Both the position numbers and the translations under genes were made by a program. A DNA stretch of 39,824 nt, taken from a virus. Under the pieces are notes generated by a model that had not been told where the DNA came from, ran no database searches, and saw only the letters and a program-made list of their open reading frames with translations. Below are positions 2,581 through 26,948 of the stretch, in pieces. Every line of letters begins with the position of its first letter. Position 1 is the stretch's first letter. Location of the stretch: positions 1-39,824 of the IMG/VR virus record IMGVR_UViG_3300008448_000227. One strand, 5' to 3'.

Positions 2581-3649
2581 TCATATATTTTGGGATGTTG
2601 CAGAAGTATTAGAATATGATTATACGTACTCTTACATTTTTCCTGATGCTGGAAAAACTAATACAGATAGTTTATTTGCTTTAAAAGTTAGATCATGTAG
2701 CACATTATATAATGATCAATTCATATTAGCACGTCCAGCAAACAATGCAATTAAAAGAATTCCATTAGTTGGAGAAATGGTTTTAATTTACAAAACTTTT
2801 AACGAACAATCAACTAAATATAAACGACGAGAAAGTTGGTACTATGTTGATACCGTAGACTTACAAGGTTCTATTAATGAAAACATGTTGCCAGGCATAT
2901 CTGGTAATAAAACTCAAGATGAAATTGATAAAACAAAACCAGGTCGAACATTTACTCGTAAGCCTGTTGCTTTGTTACAACCATATGAAGGCGATACATT
3001 AATTGAAGGGCGTTTAGGAAATAGTATTCGTTTTGGTAGCACTGTTAATATTTCTACAACAGACCGTTCAGTGTCTGAAAATAACACATTAGTTCCTACA
3101 TATTATTATGTGGAACCTACATGGAAAAGTCCTAAACCACCGGGAGAGACAGGACCAGAAAATGATCCAGCACAACCTATTATTGTTTTATCTAATGGTC
3201 GCAAACAACTTCCAAATAAACAATTTATCGTAGAAAATCCAAATGTAGATGCATCTTCATTATATTTAACGAGCAATCAAGTTATTCCTTTAACATTATC
3301 AAAACCAACAACAAAAAATAATTCATTTGAAGGTTCACAATTTATTGGAGTAGGAGATAAAATTGTTTTAAGTGCTAAAACCGATGTTATTGTACTTGAT
3401 TCAAAAAAAGCAATTATATTAAATACTCCGGAAGAAGTACGTATTGGAGGTGATGATGCGGATGAACGGTTTGTTCACGGTGAAGTTTTAAAAGAAATTT
3501 TAGATAAGATAATATCACACTTATTATATACACAAATAAAGTGCGGAGATCTTACCGGTACATTTTTAAATGATACGAATTTGAGAGATGCACAAAAAAA
3601 ATTATATAGTGAGTTAACTAGTAACAAATATTTTTTAAAGAAAACATAA
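2567..3649 (+). CDS. Baseplate hub/spike-like protein with OB-fold region
   Basis: The 360-residue protein looks like a gp5-type baseplate central spike or hub component. Residues about 40-110 (FALKVRSC, IPLVGEMVLIYK, SWYYVDTVD) have the pattern of an N-terminal OB-fold barrel. The segment LQPYEGDTLIEGRLGNSIRF near residues 137-156 is typical of this family in marine T4-like phages. It is followed by short beta repeats (IGVGDKIVLSAKTDVIVLDS, IILNTPEEVRIGGD) that suggest a small beta-helical tip. The C-terminus (FVHGEVLKEILDKII) is helical. No lysozyme domain like that of T4 gp5 is present. It lies three genes before gp25. The family assignment rests on motif memory, not on an alignment. Confidence 0.55.
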   Translation: MQANNHIFWDVAEVLEYDYTYSYIFPDAGKTNTDSLFALKVRSCSTLYNDQFILARPANNAIKRIPLVGEMVLIYKTFNEQSTKYKRRESWYYVDTVDLQGSINENMLPGISGNKTQDEIDKTKPGRTFTRKPVALLQPYEGDTLIEGRLGNSIRFGSTVNISTTDRSVSENNTLVPTYYYVEPTWKSPKPPGETGPENDPAQPIIVLSNGRKQLPNKQFIVENPNVDASSLYLTSNQVIPLTLSKPTTKNNSFEGSQFIGVGDKIVLSAKTDVIVLDSKKAIILNTPEEVRIGGDDADERFVHGEVLKEILDKIISHLLYTQIKCGDLTGTFLNDTNLRDAQKKLYSELTSNKYFLKKT

Positions 3650-3650
3650 T

Positions 3651-4514
3651 ATGCCGGCAATATTTCCTCCATTAGATCGTATACCTAATCTACCTCCACA
3701 AATTACAGATAAAGCTATTCAACAATTGAATAAATTAGTTGATCAATTAGGTGATAAAGTTGTAACTGTAGCAAAAGATTCAGTTAAGTTACCAGAAAAA
3801 TGTAATTGCGATGATCCTAGAATCAAAAAAATCAAAAAAGATTTAACTGATGTGCAAACGCTTATAACTAAATTACAAACAGAGGTACCTAAAATACAAA
3901 AAATTATTAATACTACAAAAACAATAATTACTGCTGCAAATGGAGTAAAAACGGCATTAAGTGCTGCACAACTTTCTAATCCTGTAACTGCGCCTTTATT
4001 TCTTGCAATGTTATTAAAAGACGTACAAGATGCAACTATCAAAAATGCACTAGCATCAGTTCAACAATTAGCAAAAGTCCCTCCGTCATTAACGGCACAG
4101 TTAAATAAATTTGTTCCTCCTATACAAGAAGCTTTAGGTAAGATTGGTTCAAGTTGTAATGGAGAAGTTCCTGCAATTAGTATTCCAACTTCAACGTTGA
4201 GAGATGCAGATGCATTAGATTCATTTGGCGATGGATTTGATTATAATGATTTATTGGATTCTGAATTTTATCAAGAAATAAACGTGTCACAGGAAGATTT
4301 AACAAGTCGATCGGAAAATATTCAAAAATTAATCGAGCAACAACAAAGCTTATTAACATTGCAAGAAGCTCCTAGTCAAGTATATCAACTAGTAGGAAGA
4401 CCATCCGACGATTTAGGTAAAACTGGTGATTATTATATTGATACGCAAAACTTAATGATATATGGTCCTAAGCCATCAGATACAGAATGGCCTAGTATGG
4501 GCGTAAATTACTAA
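3651..4514 (+). CDS. Putative baseplate structural protein
   Basis: The 287-residue product starts with a Pro-rich segment (IFPPLDRIPNLPP). A long helical region follows with a CNCDD motif at about residue 51, then an Ala-rich hydrophobic stretch (residues 95-140) that could pack against or enter a membrane but is probably buried helix. The C-terminal 35 residues include LGKTGDYYIDTQNLMIYGPK, a short motif like the '..G..GDYYIDT....YGPK' ends of many tail-fibre and collagen-like phage proteins. That supports a virion role. It sits between the spike-like protein and gp25. A tail-tip or hub-associated protein is the best guess. Confidence 0.55.
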   Translation: MPAIFPPLDRIPNLPPQITDKAIQQLNKLVDQLGDKVVTVAKDSVKLPEKCNCDDPRIKKIKKDLTDVQTLITKLQTEVPKIQKIINTTKTIITAANGVKTALSAAQLSNPVTAPLFLAMLLKDVQDATIKNALASVQQLAKVPPSLTAQLNKFVPPIQEALGKIGSSCNGEVPAISIPTSTLRDADALDSFGDGFDYNDLLDSEFYQEINVSQEDLTSRSENIQKLIEQQQSLLTLQEAPSQVYQLVGRPSDDLGKTGDYYIDTQNLMIYGPKPSDTEWPSMGVNY

Positions 4515-4519
4515 TCGCA

Positions 4520-4529
4520 ATATTTATAT
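4520..4529 (+). promoter_or_regulatory. Candidate late promoter motif
   Basis: ATATTTATAT followed by ATAAAAAG lies in the 29-base gap before ATG 4544, in the same orientation as the other boundary copies. Confidence 0.5.
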
Positions 4530-4543
4530 ATAAAAAGATTCAT

Positions 4544-5038
4544 ATGGATTCAAAAACATTGATAAAAGCACTTAAACAAGCCGTACGCGATGTTATAAAA
4601 GAAGAGTTAACGGATATTCTTCGCGAAGGGTTACAATCTACTATTAATGAGATGAAGTCTACATCTCACACGACAGTTAATCGTGCAAACGGTAAACCGG
4701 TACCGCAACAAACAGCAAAAAACAAAATACAATTTCAGCGAACTGGTTTTGCAGATATTTTAAATGAAACGCCTTCGATGAAAGAAGGTTCTCCATCTAT
4801 TTCTAGTTTTTCAGAATTAATGTCTGAAAATTATAGAGATATGAGTTTTAGTTCTGCAGATGCACAAGGCTTTGGAATGATGCGACAAAATCAAATGCCG
4901 CAGCAGCCAGCAGCACCCGCAGTAATGCATGACCCCGAGACGGGTAAAACATTTGATGTAGATCCAGTTGTTGCAAAAGCATTGACACGTGATTATTCAG
5001 GATTAATGAAAGCAATTGAAAAGAAAAAAGGTAAATAA
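4544..5038 (+). CDS. Unknown protein in baseplate operon
   Basis: The 164-residue product begins with a strongly amphipathic charged helix (LIKALKQAVRDVIKEELTDI) and continues as a low-complexity, Met/Gln/Pro-rich linker (residues 100-130). A short C-terminal segment, DPETGKTFDVDPVVAKALTRDY, looks like a folded helical cap. Its TAA shares its last base with the ATG of gp25, so it is translated together with the wedge gene. No family recognised. It could be a small wedge accessory protein or an assembly factor. Confidence 0.6.
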   Translation: MDSKTLIKALKQAVRDVIKEELTDILREGLQSTINEMKSTSHTTVNRANGKPVPQQTAKNKIQFQRTGFADILNETPSMKEGSPSISSFSELMSENYRDMSFSSADAQGFGMMRQNQMPQQPAAPAVMHDPETGKTFDVDPVVAKALTRDYSGLMKAIEKKKGK

Positions 5039-5460
5039 TGCCATATCAAGTAATTGAACCGTTAGTTGACCCAGCTAGTTCCGCCGCTTTAGGTGTTGGA
5101 TTACAATCACTCACTCCGATTTATTTAACTACCGATCAAGCATTTGAAAATTTAAAAACTTTGCTATTAACTCATAAAGGCGAACGTTATAATCAACCTA
5201 CATTTGGAACTCGTTTATTATACGTTTTATTTGAACCTAATATGGAATCTTTAAAACAAACGATTGATGATGCCATCAAAACTCCAGTTTCATATTGGTT
5301 GCCGTATATAACAATTGAAAATATTGATATCGTAACTGCAGATGAAAATCCGGATTTATACTATAATATACAAGTAACAATTTCTTTTTCAGTTGCACAA
5401 TATTCAACGCAAACCATAACACTCGGCGTAACTGACACCGGGGTATTAGAAGTAGGTTAA
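5038..5460 (+). CDS. 25: Baseplate wedge subunit gp25 (GPW/gp25 family)
   Basis: The 140-residue product matches the gp25/GpW family of contractile-tail baseplate wedge proteins, which join the sheath to the wedge. It has the family core: DQAFENLKTLLLTHKGERY (residues 33-51, with the conserved Gly-Glu-Arg), then FGTRLLYVLFEP (56-67), and a closing beta region with I-x-I-x-N at residues about 98-102. T4 gp25 is 132 aa, so the length fits. It directly precedes gp6, its known partner in the wedge core. The gene overlaps the previous stop by one base. Confidence 0.88.
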   Translation: MPYQVIEPLVDPASSAALGVGLQSLTPIYLTTDQAFENLKTLLLTHKGERYNQPTFGTRLLYVLFEPNMESLKQTIDDAIKTPVSYWLPYITIENIDIVTADENPDLYYNIQVTISFSVAQYSTQTITLGVTDTGVLEVG

Positions 5461-5461
5461 C

Positions 5462-7342
5462 ATGGAAATAAAAAAAGATATATCATATCTAGGCAAAGAT
5501 TTTAATCAACTTAGAAAAAATCTAATTGATTTTTCAAAACAATATTTTCCTAATACGTATAATGATTTTAATGAATCATCCCCGGGAATGTTGTTCATGG
5601 AAATTGCTGCATATGTAGGAGATGTATTATCATATTACGCAGATAATAATTTAAAAGAATCATTTTTAGAACAAGCATCTGAACGTGCAAATATTTATGA
5701 TTTAGCAAAATCGTTAGGATATCGTCCAAAGAATGTAGTGCCGGCATATGTAACATTAGATGTTTATCAATTAGTTCCTGCTATAGGCACCGGAATCAAT
5801 GTTCAGCCGGATTTTAATTATGCATTATCAATTAAACCAGGTATGCAAATAAAACAAACTGCGGGGTCTGCAGTATTTAGAACATTGGATTCTGTAGATT
5901 TTGGGTATTCATCTTCAATTGATTCTACAGAAATTACTATATACGAAACAGATGATGCAACTAAACTTCCTACATATTATTTATTAAAAAAACAAACTAA
6001 GGCAGTTTCCGGTGAAATAAAAAAACAATCTTTTACATTTTCTAATGCAATTGCATATGATAAAATTGTATTGCCAGATTCCAATATCATTGAAATAATT
6101 TCAGTAACCGAATCAGATGGGGACAATTGGTATGAAGTTCCATTTTTAGCTCAAGACACAATTTTTGAATCTGTACCGAATTTATTAGAAAACGATCCGG
6201 ATTTATATCAGTATCGTTCATCGGCTCCTAGTTTACTTAAATTAAGAAAAACTGCAAAACGTTTTATTACTAGATTGCGAAGTGATAACAAATTAGAATT
6301 ACAATTTGGCTCTGGTATTTCTGATAATAATGATGAAGAAATAATTCCAAATCCTAGTAATGTTGGAAACGGATTAAGTGGTGTTAGAAGATTAGTTGAT
6401 GTAGATATTGATCCTTCAAATTTTTTATATACTAGAACATATGGACAAGCTCCTGCTAATACTACATTATCTGTAACATATACAGTTGGAAATGGTATTT
6501 CTGATAATGTTGCTATAAACACATTAACCAATGTAGATTTCGTTGAATATGATGAAGATATTAATTCTACAAATAACATTTCAATATTGAATTTTGTAAA
6601 AACAACGGTTGCTGTTAATAATGCCGTTCCTGCTGCAGGAGCAAAAACGGCAGATACGTTGCAAGACATTAAAAATAATGCATTAGGTAATTTTGCTACA
6701 CAGAATCGTTTAGTAACACGAGATGATTATATTATACGAGCATATTCAATGCCGCAAAAATTTGGAAGTGTTGCAAAAGCATATATAGTTCCAGATGATC
6801 AAATAGCACAATCAGATTTTCAACAAACTAGAATTGCAAATCCATTAGCAATGAATATGTATGTTTTAGGTTTTAATCAATCTAAACAATTAGTTGCACT
6901 TAATGATGCAATCAAAGAAAATCTAAAAACGTATTTAGGTTATTATCGCATATTAACTGATGCAATAAATATAAAAGACGCATTTATTATCAATATCGGA
7001 ATTGATTTTGAAATTTCAGTTTTATCAAATTATAATAGCAATGAAACGTTATTGAAATGTGTTGATGCAGTACGTTCAATGTTTGATGTAGATAAATGGC
7101 AAATAAATCAACCTGTTATTAAATCAGATATAACTACATTGTTAGCTAACGTAAAAGGCGTTCAAAGCGTTGTAGGAGTTAAATTTAAAAATTTATTTGA
7201 TACTGACTTTGGATATTCTGGTAATGTTTATGATTTAGATACTGCAACACGCAATGGCGTAATTTATCCATCATTAGATCCTAGTATTTTTGAAATTAAA
7301 TTTCCAAATCAAGATATTCGCGGAAGAGTAGTAAGTTATTAA
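5462..7342 (+). CDS. 6: Baseplate wedge subunit gp6 (baseplate J-like)
   Basis: The 626-residue product is close in length to T4 gp6 (660 aa). The N-terminal region is characteristic: YLGKDFNQLRKNLIDFSKQ, then FNESSPGMLFMEIAAYVGDV and DNNLKESFLEQASERANIYD, followed by LAKSLGYRP. This is the conserved start of the gp6/GpJ wedge family. The centre contains LVTRDDYIIRAYSMP (residues about 415-430), a family hallmark of baseplate J. The C-terminus (ITTLLANVKGVQSVVGVKF) matches the domain that forms the inner baseplate ring. It lies one base after gp25, and the two probably form a wedge-core complex as in T4. Confidence 0.87.
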   Translation: MEIKKDISYLGKDFNQLRKNLIDFSKQYFPNTYNDFNESSPGMLFMEIAAYVGDVLSYYADNNLKESFLEQASERANIYDLAKSLGYRPKNVVPAYVTLDVYQLVPAIGTGINVQPDFNYALSIKPGMQIKQTAGSAVFRTLDSVDFGYSSSIDSTEITIYETDDATKLPTYYLLKKQTKAVSGEIKKQSFTFSNAIAYDKIVLPDSNIIEIISVTESDGDNWYEVPFLAQDTIFESVPNLLENDPDLYQYRSSAPSLLKLRKTAKRFITRLRSDNKLELQFGSGISDNNDEEIIPNPSNVGNGLSGVRRLVDVDIDPSNFLYTRTYGQAPANTTLSVTYTVGNGISDNVAINTLTNVDFVEYDEDINSTNNISILNFVKTTVAVNNAVPAAGAKTADTLQDIKNNALGNFATQNRLVTRDDYIIRAYSMPQKFGSVAKAYIVPDDQIAQSDFQQTRIANPLAMNMYVLGFNQSKQLVALNDAIKENLKTYLGYYRILTDAINIKDAFIINIGIDFEISVLSNYNSNETLLKCVDAVRSMFDVDKWQINQPVIKSDITTLLANVKGVQSVVGVKFKNLFDTDFGYSGNVYDLDTATRNGVIYPSLDPSIFEIKFPNQDIRGRVVSY

Positions 7343-19691: not shown

Positions 19692-20174
19692 ATGGCAAAA
19701 AATCACTTTCACAGTGCAGGAAACTCTAAACGAGCAACTGCATTAAAATATGGTTATAAATCTGGATTAGAACATGTTGTTGCAGAAGCAATAAAATCTA
19801 CTCCATATGATTTGAAATATGAAACAGAAACTATAAATTATATAGTACCAGAGCGTAAAGCAAAATATACGCCTGACTTTGTATTTACAAAACGTAACGG
19901 CCAATTCATGTTCGTTGAAACAAAAGGACGATGGACTACAGCAGATCGTACTAAAATGAAACACGTATTAGCTTCAAATCCTGGCGTAGATATTCGAATG
20001 GTTTTTCAAAATCCTAATCAACGTTTATCAAAAACAAGCAAAACTACTTATGCTGAATATGCATTAAAACTAGGAATACGTCACGTTGCAAAGAAAGATA
20101 TTCCTGCAGAATGGCTCGAAGAATGTGTTAAATCAGGAGAAAGTCCGGTTAATGTTAAACGTTTCTTTGAATAA
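19692..20174 (+). CDS. T7-type endonuclease I (Holliday junction resolvase)
   Basis: The 160-residue product aligns well by eye with phage T7 gp3, the structure-specific endonuclease that resolves branched DNA before packaging. Shared segments are SGLE (Glu27), YTPDF (Asp62), FVETKG (Glu76, Lys78), the D-R-x-K-M stretch, DIRMVFQNPNQRLSK, TYAEYALKLGIRH and IPAEWL. All four metal-site residues of the PD-(D/E)xK nuclease are present. T7 gp3 is 149 aa, so the length fits. T4 uses the unrelated gp49 for this job. It stands just upstream of the primase and recombination genes, consistent with a role in replication intermediates. Confidence 0.88.
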   Translation: MAKNHFHSAGNSKRATALKYGYKSGLEHVVAEAIKSTPYDLKYETETINYIVPERKAKYTPDFVFTKRNGQFMFVETKGRWTTADRTKMKHVLASNPGVDIRMVFQNPNQRLSKTSKTTYAEYALKLGIRHVAKKDIPAEWLEECVKSGESPVNVKRFFE

Positions 20175-20362: not shown

Positions 20363-21304
20363 ATGAAGAATCTAAAACTATTACAATTGTTAGAATCAGT
20401 TTTAGGTAAAGGAAAACCTACATCTGGTGATAACATTGCATTCTTTTCTCCTTTTGTTTCTCACTACAAACCAAAATTAGAAATCAATATTCAAACAAAT
20501 CACGCCGGAGAAAATAATTGGCATTGTTGGATATCTGATAAGAAAGGTCGAAGCATTGTTTCACTTTTCAAACAACTCAATTTACCAAAAGAGCGTTTCG
20601 AACAACTTAATAGAATAATTGAATCTGCTAAGTATAGAACAACCGCAACTGAAACAAAAACGGCAACAATTCAACTGCCACAAGAATATGCTCCACTTTG
20701 GATTAAAAAAAATACACCGGATTATCGCAATGCAATTCATTATTTAACTAATCGCGGTATTACAGTATTTGATATTTTAAAGTATCGTATTGGGTATTGT
20801 GAATCGGGAGAATATTCTGGAAAAATAATTATTCCTAGTTATGATGCACAAGGTCAACTCAATTATTTTGTTAGCCGAGCATTTTACAAAGCAGATAAAT
20901 TTAAACATAAGAATCCAAAAATTTCAAAAGATATTATTGGTTTTGAAATGACAATCAATTGGGCTGAACCAATTATACTTTGTGAAGGGTCATTTGATGC
21001 AATTGCAGTTAAACGCAATGCAATTCCACTCTTTGGTAAAATAATTCAACCTGCTTTGCAAAAGAAAATCATTGAAGAACGAGTGAAAAACATTTACATT
21101 TGCTTAGATGCCGATGCATTAAAGAATGCACTTTCAATTGCAGAACGGTTCATGGCAGAAGGCCTTAATGTTTACTTTGTTGAACTGCAGGAAGAAGATG
21201 CATCAGAATTAGGATTTCAAAAAATTACAGAAATTATAGAAAATACTGACTTATTAACATTTGAACGTGTTATGGAGTTAAAAATGGGACTTATATGGAC
21301 ATAA
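20363..21304 (+). CDS. 61: DNA primase, gp61-like (TOPRIM)
   Basis: The 313-residue product resembles the T4 gp61 primase, which makes pentaribonucleotide primers with the gp41 helicase. The TOPRIM core is visible: ILCEGSFDA with Glu208 and ICLDADAL with Asp249 and Asp251, the metal-binding residues. The middle region AIHYLTNRGITVFDILKYRIGYC is typical of DnaG-type and phage primases. The N-terminal region around NNWHCWISDKKGRS (residues 51-64) stands where a zinc finger lies in other primases. Few Cys remain, so the zinc site looks degenerate or lost. The length is close to gp61 (342 aa). It overlaps the recombination nuclease gene by 10 bases. Confidence 0.78.
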   Translation: MKNLKLLQLLESVLGKGKPTSGDNIAFFSPFVSHYKPKLEINIQTNHAGENNWHCWISDKKGRSIVSLFKQLNLPKERFEQLNRIIESAKYRTTATETKTATIQLPQEYAPLWIKKNTPDYRNAIHYLTNRGITVFDILKYRIGYCESGEYSGKIIIPSYDAQGQLNYFVSRAFYKADKFKHKNPKISKDIIGFEMTINWAEPIILCEGSFDAIAVKRNAIPLFGKIIQPALQKKIIEERVKNIYICLDADALKNALSIAERFMAEGLNVYFVELQEEDASELGFQKITEIIENTDLLTFERVMELKMGLIWT

Positions 21305-24300
21305 AACGAATTGATGTTGGAATAGATAAGATTGATAAAATTTATCACGTTTCAGATATTCATATTAGAACATTGAAAAGGCATCGTGAATACCGAGAAG
21401 TTTTCCAAAATCTTTTTGATTACATTGCAAAAACTAGTACAGAAAATAGTGTAGCAGTTGTAACTGGAGATATAGTACATAGTAAATTAGATATGTCCCC
21501 GGAACTAGTTCAGATGCTAGTAGATTTTTTTAATGGATTCAAAATACCTACCATTGTTATTTTAGGTAATCATGATATGAATCTAAACAATATGCATCGT
21601 GTTGATGCAGTGAGTCCTGTATTAGATGTTATTCAAAATCCTAATATTATATTTGTAAAAGATAACGGACTTTTTGAATTAGGCGGAGTTACATGGAATC
21701 ATATGGCAGTTGATAAGACGCCTGCAGAATACGTACGAGCTAAAGATTTTACAGCTTCATATAAAATTGCACTACATCATGGTGCTGTTAATACTGCTAA
21801 AACAGATATTGGTTATCAAATATCAAATGAACATGTAACTACAGAATTATTTGCAGGACATGATGTTACTTTGCTAGGAGACATTCATAAGCCAGCACAA
21901 TTCTTAGATGCAGAACGTACAATTGCATATCCAGGTTCATTGATACAACAAAATCATGGAGAAGCATTAGACCATGGGATATTGGTTTGGAACGTTGAAG
22001 ACCGAACTGCTGAATTTGTTCAAATTGAAAATGATTATGGATATGTTACATTAGAAACTCAAGGTGAAAAAATAGTTTCACATCCACATCGTATGCCGCG
22101 TAAACCTAGAATCCGTATTAAATTTAACGGAACTAGTGCAGCGGATATGAAAAAGCTTGTTGCAACAATTCGTAAAAAATATGATGTACAAGACATAACA
22201 ATTCAACGTACGATTGAACATGCAAATTCTGCAACATCATCTAGTTTAGCAATAGGAAATGTACGAGATGTTGAATATCAAAATACATTGCTTTCAGATT
22301 ATATCGATTCACACTTTCCACAAGCAACTGCAGAAGAAGTAGATGCAATTCGACACATTAATCGAACAATTAATTCAAAGCTACCAGCAGTAGAATCAAT
22401 ACGACATACAACATGGCATCCTATATCTTTTGAGTTTGACAACATGTTTTCATACGGTGAAGGCAATGTTATTAACTTTGAAAATTTACAAGATGTGTGT
22501 GGATTATTTGCTGCAAATACATCTGGTAAGTCATCTTTGCTTGATGCAATAACTTATACTATTTTTGATAAATGTAGTAAAACGGGTAAAGCAAATGAAG
22601 TTTTAAACAATAAAAAAGATTGGTTCCGTGGAGTATTTCGTTTTGAAATGAATGGTATTACTTATACAATCGAGCGACGAGGAACACAAAATAAAAAGAA
22701 AGAAACACACGTTAAAGTTGATGTTGAATTTTATACAGATTCAGAAAATTTAAACGGAGAAGAACGAAGTGAAACAAATAAAAACATACGTCGTTATTTA
22801 GGTACATATGATGATTTTATTTTAACTGCATTTTCACTTCAAGCTGATAATAACAACTTTATTGAAAAGTCACAAAAAGAACGCAAAGACTTACTTTCAC
22901 AGTTTTTAGATATTACGGTATTTGAACAACTTTATCAACTTGCGGCAGATGAAATTAAAGAAACTGCAGGTCGTTTAAAAGATTACAAGAAAACGGATTT
23001 TGCTGAATTAATTATATCAGCTGACACGATTATATCAGATAATCAAGAAACCATTACTGCATTAGAACAGCAAGAAGATGTATTGCAAGATCAACGTAAT
23101 TCTTTGCAAGAACAGATTGTTGAATTGATTGAAACAAAAATGCCAACAACTTACAATGGCCCAGATATCAAAGAATTAAAACGACAAGAACAGGCATTAA
23201 TCAAACAAATTGAATCCATACAAACAGACATTGAAACTGCAGAACAAGACTTAGAGTCATTGATTGCTAAAATTGATGAACAAGAAACGCAACTTGCAGA
23301 ATTCAATGTTACGGAATTAAATGAACAAACAAAATTATACTCACAAAAAGAACATTCAGTTAACATACTTTTACAAAAGTTTCGACAACAACAGGAGATA
23401 GTAAATGCAAAACAAGAAAAAATTAATCACCTTTCAGACCATGAATATGATCCGCAGTGTAAATACTGTACATCTAACGTTTTCGTACAAAATGCAATTG
23501 AAGCACAGAATACAATTGACGCGGATAGAGACGTATTAAATTCAACCAAACAAAAGATTGCGGAGTTGAATCAAGAAATTGAAACATTATCGCCAATATT
23601 TGAACAAACAGAACAATACAATTCTTTACAAAATTCAATTAAAACAAACAAGATTACTTTGGAACGCAATGAATTGCAACTTCAAATTTTAGAAAGCGAT
23701 CTTCAAACCAGAGAATCAGAATTAGAAACTGCAATTGAACGGCAAGAATCATTTCGTCAAAATGAAACTGCAATTAAACACAATCAAACAGTTGACACGC
23801 ATATTGATACATGCAAACAAAAAATAACGGCGATATCAGAACAACTAAAAACTATTCAAAATCAAATTAAAAACAATTACGGTGCAATAGAAGTAGCAAA
23901 AACACAAAAAGCTACGGCAATACAAAACTTAGAACGTTACCGTCAATTAGAAACAGAATACAAAGCATATGAATATTATTTAGAATCAGTTAAACGTGAT
24001 GGTATTCCATATGAATTAATTACAAAAGCGCTCCCTAAAATAGAAGCTGAAATAAACAATGTACTTAATCAAATTGTTGATTTTAACATGGTAATGAATA
24101 CAGATGGCAAAAACATTAACGGATATATTATTTATGATGAAGATAATTTTTGGCCATTAGAATTAACATCGGGTATGGAACGTTTCATTTCTTCATTAGC
24201 AATTCGCATAGCACTTATAAATGTTTCAGCATTACCACGTCCAAATTTCATTGCAATCGATGAAGGATGGGGTTCATTAGATGCAGATCATATTTCTTCT

Positions 24301-24441
24301 GTAGTTAATTTGTTTGAATATTTTAGAACTAAATTTGATTTCTCAATTATCATTTCGCACGTTGATTCGATGCGAGATATGGTAGATTCATTAATAGAAG
24401 TAAACAAGACACAAGGATTTAGCCAGATTAATCATGTTTGA
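21295..24441 (+). CDS. Fused recombination nuclease-ATPase (gp47 + gp46; Mre11/SbcD + Rad50/SbcC)
   Basis: The 1048-residue frame joins two proteins that T4 encodes separately. Residues 1 to about 370 are an Mre11/SbcD/gp47 phosphoesterase: DIH (Asp21, His23), GDI (Asp59), GNHD (Asn92, His93), HHG (161-163) and GDIHKP (His198). Residues about 372-1048 are the Rad50/SbcC/gp46 ATPase: an N-lobe with SGKSS (Lys412), a long coiled coil (about 565-900) with a zinc hook Cys722-x2-Cys725, the signature TSGMERF (958-964), Walker B FIAIDEGWGSLD (985-996) and the H-loop SHVD (His1022). The P-loop begins with Ala406 instead of Gly. No stop or likely internal start lies at the junction. Its role is DNA end resection in recombination-dependent replication and host DNA breakdown. 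Confidence 0.9.
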   Translation: MDIKRIDVGIDKIDKIYHVSDIHIRTLKRHREYREVFQNLFDYIAKTSTENSVAVVTGDIVHSKLDMSPELVQMLVDFFNGFKIPTIVILGNHDMNLNNMHRVDAVSPVLDVIQNPNIIFVKDNGLFELGGVTWNHMAVDKTPAEYVRAKDFTASYKIALHHGAVNTAKTDIGYQISNEHVTTELFAGHDVTLLGDIHKPAQFLDAERTIAYPGSLIQQNHGEALDHGILVWNVEDRTAEFVQIENDYGYVTLETQGEKIVSHPHRMPRKPRIRIKFNGTSAADMKKLVATIRKKYDVQDITIQRTIEHANSATSSSLAIGNVRDVEYQNTLLSDYIDSHFPQATAEEVDAIRHINRTINSKLPAVESIRHTTWHPISFEFDNMFSYGEGNVINFENLQDVCGLFAANTSGKSSLLDAITYTIFDKCSKTGKANEVLNNKKDWFRGVFRFEMNGITYTIERRGTQNKKKETHVKVDVEFYTDSENLNGEERSETNKNIRRYLGTYDDFILTAFSLQADNNNFIEKSQKERKDLLSQFLDITVFEQLYQLAADEIKETAGRLKDYKKTDFAELIISADTIISDNQETITALEQQEDVLQDQRNSLQEQIVELIETKMPTTYNGPDIKELKRQEQALIKQIESIQTDIETAEQDLESLIAKIDEQETQLAEFNVTELNEQTKLYSQKEHSVNILLQKFRQQQEIVNAKQEKINHLSDHEYDPQCKYCTSNVFVQNAIEAQNTIDADRDVLNSTKQKIAELNQEIETLSPIFEQTEQYNSLQNSIKTNKITLERNELQLQILESDLQTRESELETAIERQESFRQNETAIKHNQTVDTHIDTCKQKITAISEQLKTIQNQIKNNYGAIEVAKTQKATAIQNLERYRQLETEYKAYEYYLESVKRDGIPYELITKALPKIEAEINNVLNQIVDFNMVMNTDGKNINGYIIYDEDNFWPLELTSGMERFISSLAIRIALINVSALPRPNFIAIDEGWGSLDADHISSVVNLFEYFRTKFDFSIIISHVDSMRDMVDSLIEVNKTQGFSQINHV

Positions 24442-24467: not shown

Positions 24468-26948
24468 ATGAAACGCAAAGAAACAGTTTATAAAGGTTTA
24501 GAATTTATTAATGTTTATTTTGAAGATACATCAGCTACATCGCCAGATTATTTTCAAATAACCGAATTTCCAACACGTTTAACTGCGGGTAAGAATTTAT
24601 TTAAACTTCGAGGTCATCCTAGCAATTTACGAGTTGGCGGTGTATTAAATTTAGAAATCTTAGATTATAATGGTGATCCAATTTATTATGAAATTGTAGA
24701 TTATATTGATGAAGACAAATCGCGTGTAATTGCAATTTACATTTATGAAGAAACATCTCCAGGTGACTGCACGATTACTTTAATTTCTGAAGCACAAACA
24801 ATTAACGGTGCACCAGTACCACAAGAATGGCAAGGTCGTCCTAACGTAAGATGGCGTCGCACAGTTCCCGTCAATCCAAATATATCAAATGATTCGGAAA
24901 TCATATTTGCTAAATTACCCGAGATAACAGTATCAGAACAAGTAGGAGTACAGCTTGATAGAATATATTCCGGCAGTCAACAATTTCCTACATACACAAC
25001 GGGAAAGGTAAGATATTTTGCTCTTAACGGAACACCTGCAATAGAAATATCTGGCGGATTATTTACATCTGATATGTCTACGGGAACAATAACAATATCA
25101 ACACCTGTTAATCCTACGCCTACTCCTAATTTCCCGGTGGTTTCCACTCCTTATACAAGTACGATAAAAAAGATATTATCTAGTACTACGGCTTTATTAG
25201 ATACGCAGTATACGGCTTATAGTAGCCAAAGCTTATCTCCACAAACATATACAGCATTTGACTATTCCACATTTTCATTATCATATGAAGCATCTCCAAC
25301 ATATGTTGCTACAGAAAATTCACAATCATTTGCTCTTGTACAAGTTAAAGGCTTAGATCCGTCAACTGGCGATGTTTCTAGAATCAAAGTTTATACGAAT
25401 AATAAAGGCACGGTTGGAACATGGGAATTGGTTAATGATGTTGAACTTGAAGAAACGGAAATATTTGTTAGTAGCACAGCTTCATTATTTCCAGACGAAT
25501 CTATAGGTATTTTTACTTCACAAAGTGTTATCAATACGTATTGGGAAGGTTTTACGTATCAAGGAAAAACAGTAGCAACTGCACCAACATTAACTTGGTC
25601 GACTGCATCATTAAATAATGCAATGTCCATAACAAGTGCAGTTGATATTTCTGCAACAAACGCAGTACATGTAGTACAACAAAAAACAGCTTACGCCGGC
25701 ATATTTATTGCAACGTCATCATATAAAGTTACTATTGATGCATTAGGAACAAGAAGTAGTGACGGATTGAATCCTAGAATGTCAGTATACGTTTCCGGAA
25801 GTGCAACAGCTTTTGATTCAACAGATTATTTCAATCAAGAATTTCCTAGGAGATTAGGTAAAAAAATAGGAGAACTGGAAGTTACTTCAGAGTCACAACG
25901 TTTCGATGACGTAGTGTTTAATTTTGAAACTGATGCCGATGGGACAGCAAATCTTTTATTTGTAATAGAATCCGGTCAATGGCAAATTGCAGATGTACGA
26001 ACAACAACAGATAATGATGCCGGATATTCTCCTAATTATACACGTATTAGATCAATTATCAATACACCACATAAAGCAAACAATCAAATTTCCTTTAAGG
26101 TAGAATATTATAATGTAGCCGGAGTTAAAAGCAAACAAACATCTTATTTGTATAGCAAGTCTTGGCAGGGTGGAAATCGTTATATTGATGGCGATTATTC
26201 AATGCTTACTGGTTCACTATATGTTGCAGATTCATTAGAATCAGGTGTAGCAATATCGGGATATTCTAATTCAGGTTTTATTAGATCATTAGGATACGAA
26301 GGATTTGACGCTGGATTCCCTGGATTTTTATTATGGAGCGGGTCTGCACTTAATGGACAATTATCTAAAAATAATGCACCATACTCGGGTGTAGGATTAG
26401 AACTTTATCTTAATACTTCAAGTTATTTCAGATATTCAACATCAGATAACGAAATATATGTTGCAACAGATAATTTCTTTTTTGGTAATCCAAATACGGC
26501 ATATATTAGCGGAAGTAATGGAAATATTGAAATTTCTTCTAGCAATTTCTTACTAAGTAGTAGTGGAGATGTATTTGCAAATAACGCGACATTTACAGGT
26601 ACAAATGAATCATCAGTATTTACAAATACGACTATAAATATAACTACCTCAAATTCATCTAGTTATTTGCAGAGAATAGGCAACGGCACGTTGCTTAACC
26701 CATACCGATGGAGATTAGTATTAAATGGCGCATTGGGTGGGGAAATTACTCAAAAAATACTTATAGATTGCGACGTTAATACAAGTCCAGAATCTGCTGC
26801 GATTAATAAATTATCAGCCATTACAGATATTTTAATGCCCATTACAACTACTGCAGGTAGTACTATTCAATTAACCATTGCAGATGGTCGTAATGTAAAT
26901 ATAAATGATGCCTTTAGTTTAGCAATTCCTGGCGGATTACCTGCATAA
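24468..26948 (+). CDS. Large tail-fibre-like structural protein
   Basis: The 826-residue product is beta-rich with many Ser/Thr/Gly and no catalytic motif. The N-terminal 150 residues form one compact region (FRLTAGKNLF-like start at 35-45; NVRWRRTVPVNP near 127). Residues about 250-560 contain sandwich-like domains of the type seen in fibres and baseplate appendages. Residues about 675-725 carry ISGSNGNIEISSSNFLLSSS then GDVFANNATFTGT, a repetitive beta pattern typical of trimeric fibre shafts. It follows the gp47-46 fusion and precedes another fibre-like protein. A receptor-contacting fibre or its adaptor is the best guess. Confidence 0.55.
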   Translation: MKRKETVYKGLEFINVYFEDTSATSPDYFQITEFPTRLTAGKNLFKLRGHPSNLRVGGVLNLEILDYNGDPIYYEIVDYIDEDKSRVIAIYIYEETSPGDCTITLISEAQTINGAPVPQEWQGRPNVRWRRTVPVNPNISNDSEIIFAKLPEITVSEQVGVQLDRIYSGSQQFPTYTTGKVRYFALNGTPAIEISGGLFTSDMSTGTITISTPVNPTPTPNFPVVSTPYTSTIKKILSSTTALLDTQYTAYSSQSLSPQTYTAFDYSTFSLSYEASPTYVATENSQSFALVQVKGLDPSTGDVSRIKVYTNNKGTVGTWELVNDVELEETEIFVSSTASLFPDESIGIFTSQSVINTYWEGFTYQGKTVATAPTLTWSTASLNNAMSITSAVDISATNAVHVVQQKTAYAGIFIATSSYKVTIDALGTRSSDGLNPRMSVYVSGSATAFDSTDYFNQEFPRRLGKKIGELEVTSESQRFDDVVFNFETDADGTANLLFVIESGQWQIADVRTTTDNDAGYSPNYTRIRSIINTPHKANNQISFKVEYYNVAGVKSKQTSYLYSKSWQGGNRYIDGDYSMLTGSLYVADSLESGVAISGYSNSGFIRSLGYEGFDAGFPGFLLWSGSALNGQLSKNNAPYSGVGLELYLNTSSYFRYSTSDNEIYVATDNFFFGNPNTAYISGSNGNIEISSSNFLLSSSGDVFANNATFTGTNESSVFTNTTINITTSNSSSYLQRIGNGTLLNPYRWRLVLNGALGGEITQKILIDCDVNTSPESAAINKLSAITDILMPITTTAGSTIQLTIADGRNVNINDAFSLAIPGGLPA

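Follow-up and report, generated by a model that had tools for sequence, protein, structure and literature searches.

In the window, the 39,824-nucleotide stretch of viral DNA that was analysed (IMG/VR record IMGVR_UViG_3300008448_000227), a tailed phage encodes what we take, with a probability of roughly 0.88, to be a Mimivirus R555-type enzyme that combines Mre11 and Rad50 (SbcD and SbcC; gp47 and gp46 in T4) in a single polypeptide. The gene lies at 21295..24441 on the plus strand, where all other features given below are also located, and its frame opens with an ATG at 21295 and runs uninterrupted to a stop codon ending at 24441, giving a protein of 1048 aa; the original prediction had described one 1048-codon frame at these positions and was borne out in coordinates, frame and length. 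Within this one chain, an N-terminal Mre11/SbcD-type phosphoesterase is followed by a complete Rad50/SbcC-type ATPase. Pfam placed Metallophos (PF00149) at residues 15-200 (E 5.7e-12) and gave an SMC_N match with E 1e-7, under the curated cut-off, while the SbcC-like PHROG_77 spanned residues 351-1046 (E 8e-54). A profile built from 39 relatives matched the solved structures of E. coli SbcC (8.9e-38), an archaeal Rad50 (2.9e-27) and T. maritima Rad50 as well as T. maritima Mre11 (2.8e-12). A scan of IMG/VR with the fusion found 373 relatives, 80 of which were kept for analysis.

The nuclease core occupies residues 13-232 (21331..21990; boundaries approximate, from the structural model) and carries the motifs DIH at 21-23, GDIVH at 58-62, GNHD at 91-94, H162 and GDIH at 195-198. 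Every motif that had been predicted, with the numbering D21, H23, D59, N92, H93, H198, C722/C725 and A406, was located as stated, and H162, which was absent from that list, is also invariant. In the alignment, the metal ligands D21, H23, D59, N92, H162 and H198 are invariant in the window's group, and all phosphoesterase metal ligands are conserved except the equivalent of P. furiosus Mre11 His206, which is replaced by Asp196 of the GDIH motif and is invariant as Asp in groups A1 and A2. A second replacement, GDxxD to GDxxH, is present as GDIVH. Despite its invariance, Asp196 could change the nuclease or make it weaker, and a protein whose nuclease half is inactive or altered, acting mainly as a DNA-tethering ATPase or cleaving in another mode, would be consistent with the fixation of both replacements in the group and with the GHFH, GHYH or GHIH found at the GDIH position in the checked split homologues from phages and E. 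coli. We nevertheless consider this unlikely, given that the six remaining metal ligands are invariant and that Asp is capable of ligating Mn2+. The core is followed by beta strands and a helix at residues 233-306 (21991..22212; model secondary structure), which by their position would form a capping-type region.

In the ATPase half, the alignment, the model and the profile searches delimit an N-lobe at residues 373-560 (22411..22974), with Walker A at 406-413 (AANTSGKS, including A406 and G411-K412), and a C-lobe at residues 904-1047 (24004..24435), with the signature motif TSGME at 958-962 (S959-G960), the Walker B motif IAIDEGWGSLD with D989-E990 and the H-loop residue H1022. Between the lobes, model helices at residues 561-899 (22975..23991) make up a coiled coil with two arms of ~160 residues each, joining at the zinc-hook motif C722-K-Y-C725 (23458..23469), which was identified from the sequence and the alignment. 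The full Rad50/SbcC set of Walker A, signature motif, Walker B, H-loop and coiled coil with a CxxC hook is therefore present, as had been foreseen. The original prediction had regarded the alanine at the start of the P-loop as a local oddity; the alignment showed Ala406 to be fixed in both the window's group and the Mel-JY01 group, which rules out a P-loop defect, and Gly to be found in most deeper relatives. The aligned E. coli P-loop is TGPTGAGKT, and the general Walker A pattern [AG]xxxxGK[ST] permits Ala at the first position. Two full-length fused relatives (L102 and L126, 1043 aa) were found to be without any CxxC zinc-hook motif.

The AlphaFold model, computed from a 39-row alignment, had a mean pLDDT of 82.6 and a pTM of 0.46; this value, low owing to the long coiled coil, makes the relative placement of domains unreliable. 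The order along the modelled chain was the nuclease core, the beta-rich capping-type region, two helices, a coil at 361-372 and the first ATPase strand. The two helices (326-340 and 346-360) occupy the position expected for the Rad50-binding helix-loop-helix of Mre11 and are assigned as such (residues 326-360, 22270..22374), and the 12 residues that follow (361-372, 22375..22410) are a linker without regular structure in the model. In the T. maritima complex, the C-terminus of Mre11 lies ~28 Å from the N-terminus of Rad50, a gap that 9-12 linker residues would span (Yoshida et al., PMC3175470), and the linker of the window protein is within this estimate. Given the helix-loop-helix and the linker length, the usual nuclease-ATPase tether is most likely kept; its proposed replacement by a short linker near residues 330-372 was not borne out by the model. 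In a codon comparison of the window gene with 13 relatives, pN/pS was 0.05-0.23 for the whole gene and 0.00-0.17 for residues 319-372. Along the gene, the most constrained parts included the ATPase lobes and the helix-loop-helix, and the least constrained part was the coiled coil.

A T7 endonuclease I-type Holliday-junction resolvase gene (160 aa, 19692..20174; PF05367, E 4.4e-33) and a DnaG-type primase gene (313 aa, 20363..21304; phrog_47, E 1.2e-26) lie upstream, the 3' end of the latter sharing 10 bases with the start of the fusion gene, and a gene for an 826-aa protein with no match in Pfam or PHROG searches (24468-26948) follows directly downstream, as it also does in Microcystis phage Mel-JY01. 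Endonuclease I, primase, fusion and the 826-aa protein were present in 77, 79, 80 and 74 of the 80 relatives, respectively, and this order was seen in those relatives' loci that were printed. The window also contains terminase, portal, head protease and baseplate genes. RecA was found in 11 of 13 large records. Seven large contigs from the window's wider group each had a RecA gene and a single match to SbcC, which was the fusion; a second strong one was not found in these seven, IMG/VR contigs often being fragments. The exception was a 735-kb phage (LR756501.1) with both the fused gene and a separate, stronger SbcC-like match elsewhere (278537-282124 and 670999-672753), so that some jumbo phages may hold two systems.

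This neighbourhood fits a T4-like module for recombination and replication in which one chain contains both subunits, and the protein is likely to be a single-chain equivalent of T4 gp47-gp46 that processes DNA ends for RecA-dependent recombination and replication. Two chains would associate through their nuclease domains and through ATPase heads that have bound ATP, taking on the usual M2R2 shape, and the helix-loop-helix would sit, as it does in split complexes, at the base of the coiled coil. Such an enzyme would bind and resect DNA ends, and may open hairpins; the 3' single strands left by resection would feed RecA-type strand invasion during recombination-dependent replication, and endonuclease I would resolve the resulting junctions. 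Fusion would secure co-expression and a 1:1 stoichiometry, and new chemistry probably need not be invoked for the fused enzyme. Since T4 gp46 and gp47 also act in host DNA degradation (annotation of NC_000866), the protein might instead serve mainly host DNA breakdown or the countering of host defence, but we regard this as quite improbable in view of the conserved position next to a primase and a junction resolvase and of the RecA in the same contigs. A single-chain end-processing enzyme of this kind would be a handy construct of fixed stoichiometry for studying the ATP gating of the nuclease.

T4 gp47/gp46 and their cyanophage and herellevirus homologues share with the window protein the same two domains, the CxxC hook and, as predicted for it, a role in phage recombination, and their nuclease gene lies upstream of the ATPase gene, matching the domain order of the fusion. 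They differ in having GHFH or GHYH where the window has GDIH, in an identity of ~20-24% in the ATPase part, and in being encoded as two distinct genes that small ORFs usually separate, whereas the window has one uninterrupted frame.

The fusion is a genuine single chain and not a frameshift or assembly artefact, as the original prediction had held. Over the part of the gene present, 79 of the 80 kept relatives were without an internal stop, the sole interrupted copy (L019) having a single stop at residue 765, and further scans seeded from more distant members gave 30 extra IMG/VR loci, 29 of which were fused without interruption. At the junction (residues 330-400), pN/pS was 0.06-0.17 across the 13 relatives, which indicates that the junction is coding and under purifying selection. 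A union of two normal genes by misassembly, frameshift or loss of a stop is conceivable from their identical order in T4-like phages and from single relatives whose frame is cut by a stop (L019) or changes (L104), but it is ruled out by the open frame in independent contigs, by the selection over the junction and by the distant groups being likewise fused. The possibility of relatives with two genes had also been raised, but nearly every relative found is fused, and in a large phage group the fused enzyme is the rule.

Such fusions had been presumed exceptional, but have been known since 2011, when Yoshida, Claverie and Ogata reported an Mre11/Rad50 fusion in Mimivirus R555 together with twelve further cases from a phage, plasmids, bacteria and eukaryotes (PMC3175470). 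The same study found R555-like genes to be abundant in aquatic viral fractions, on GOS scaffolds that also carried primases of phages and endonucleases of the T7 gp3 type, and reported that the active site of R555 has GDxxH in place of GDxxD and Asp in place of His206 (PMC3175470). The GDIH motif, which the original prediction had also listed as a local oddity, is accordingly a replacement already described for R555, besides being fixed in the window's group. By their published description, R555-type fusions share with the window protein the domain order, GDxxH, Asp for His206, a viral origin, a retained helix-loop-helix with a linker of 9-12 residues, and, on the GOS scaffolds, a nearby phage primase and T7-gp3-type endonuclease. 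The window protein is shorter (1048 aa versus 1351 aa for R555) and, unlike R555, is encoded in a tailed phage. Compared through this description of R555, the window protein belongs to the published R555-type fusions. Both the occurrence of such fusions and how abundant they are among aquatic viruses had been published before, and the protein illustrates well something known rather than being a discovery. A search of open-licence papers found nothing on phage fusions after the 2011 paper and nothing on Mel-JY01. In structural searches, the model matched Mre11-Rad50 complexes (Foldseek against PDB), and its best matches among viral proteins (BFVD) were giant-virus proteins from Tupanvirus (E 4.7e-70), Harvfovirus (E 1.4e-68), Yasminevirus, Terrestrivirus and Catovirus. 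The top ones are DNA-repair proteins that align over about 1,300 columns, those of Tupanvirus and Harvfovirus having the full length of a fusion, and their fusion status is read from length and alignment span.

Fused copies were also found in a 735-kb uncultured phage and in the complete genome of the isolate Mel-JY01, whose protein WWT39521.1 (1066 aa, annotated as an AAA domain protein) is 40% identical to the window protein over 99% of its length. Mel-JY01 has the same motifs and an upstream primase; unlike in the window, this primase is itself preceded by a GIY-YIG gene, and the examined stretch around the fusion gave no match to endonuclease I. More remote single-chain nuclease-ATPase proteins are BPT24_019 of Tenacibaculum phage pT24 (1310 aa) and gene 71 of Xanthomonas phage phiXF1 (951 aa), which have GDIH or GDLH in the nuclease and are very divergent from the window protein (~22-30% in pieces). 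Searching GTDB gave ten loci (L122-L131), all in MAGs labelled as Nitrosopelagicus, Pelagibacteraceae, Dehalococcoidia and others; they are mostly on small contigs, several with the same phage gene order, and seem to be contigs of phages that were binned together with cellular genomes. In PLSDB, tblastn at E<=1e-5 gave partial matches only and did not recover the fusions of C. kluyveri and Deferribacter known from the literature.

We built trees from 20 fused proteins and seven split sequences, covering phage and metagenome sequences and E. coli. The nuclease tree placed all 20 fused proteins on one side of a branch (97/89), while the ATPase tree grouped 19 of them (100/99) and placed phiXF1 among the split phage homologues, for which reason phiXF1 may be a separate fusion; constraining all 20 together in the ATPase tree was not rejected (AU p 0.176). 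With few split sequences, several long branches and neither giant-virus nor cellular fusions in the trees, a single origin is possible. A history in which the fusion arose once in an old viral lineage and later came to be shared by tailed phages and giant viruses, instead of arising several times as the 2011 study proposed, is less likely than not. Under it, Asp196 and His62 would be the active-site signature of a single line of enzymes and might point to an altered metal preference or mode of cleavage.

Two fused genes were broken at the same site of the nuclease. In a 484-kb phage (L083, LR756508.1), the gene at 2980-7205 is interrupted between the GDIHK motif and SGSLIQQNHGE by an insert at about 3620-4650, which encodes, in an ORF of 305 aa, an endonuclease domain resembling TnsA (Pfam E 5.8e-6) and has no credible Rfam intron match; the gene may have been split by a mobile endonuclease. 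In a distant relative (L104, 3313-6547), the frame changes after GDIHKMQY and before AYPGST, where a start and a stop overlap at ATGAAAAAGGTTAG and the residues preceding the break resemble those of L083. An inserted module common to both genes, a site of frameshifting or a sequencing error could account for the shared position of the two breaks.
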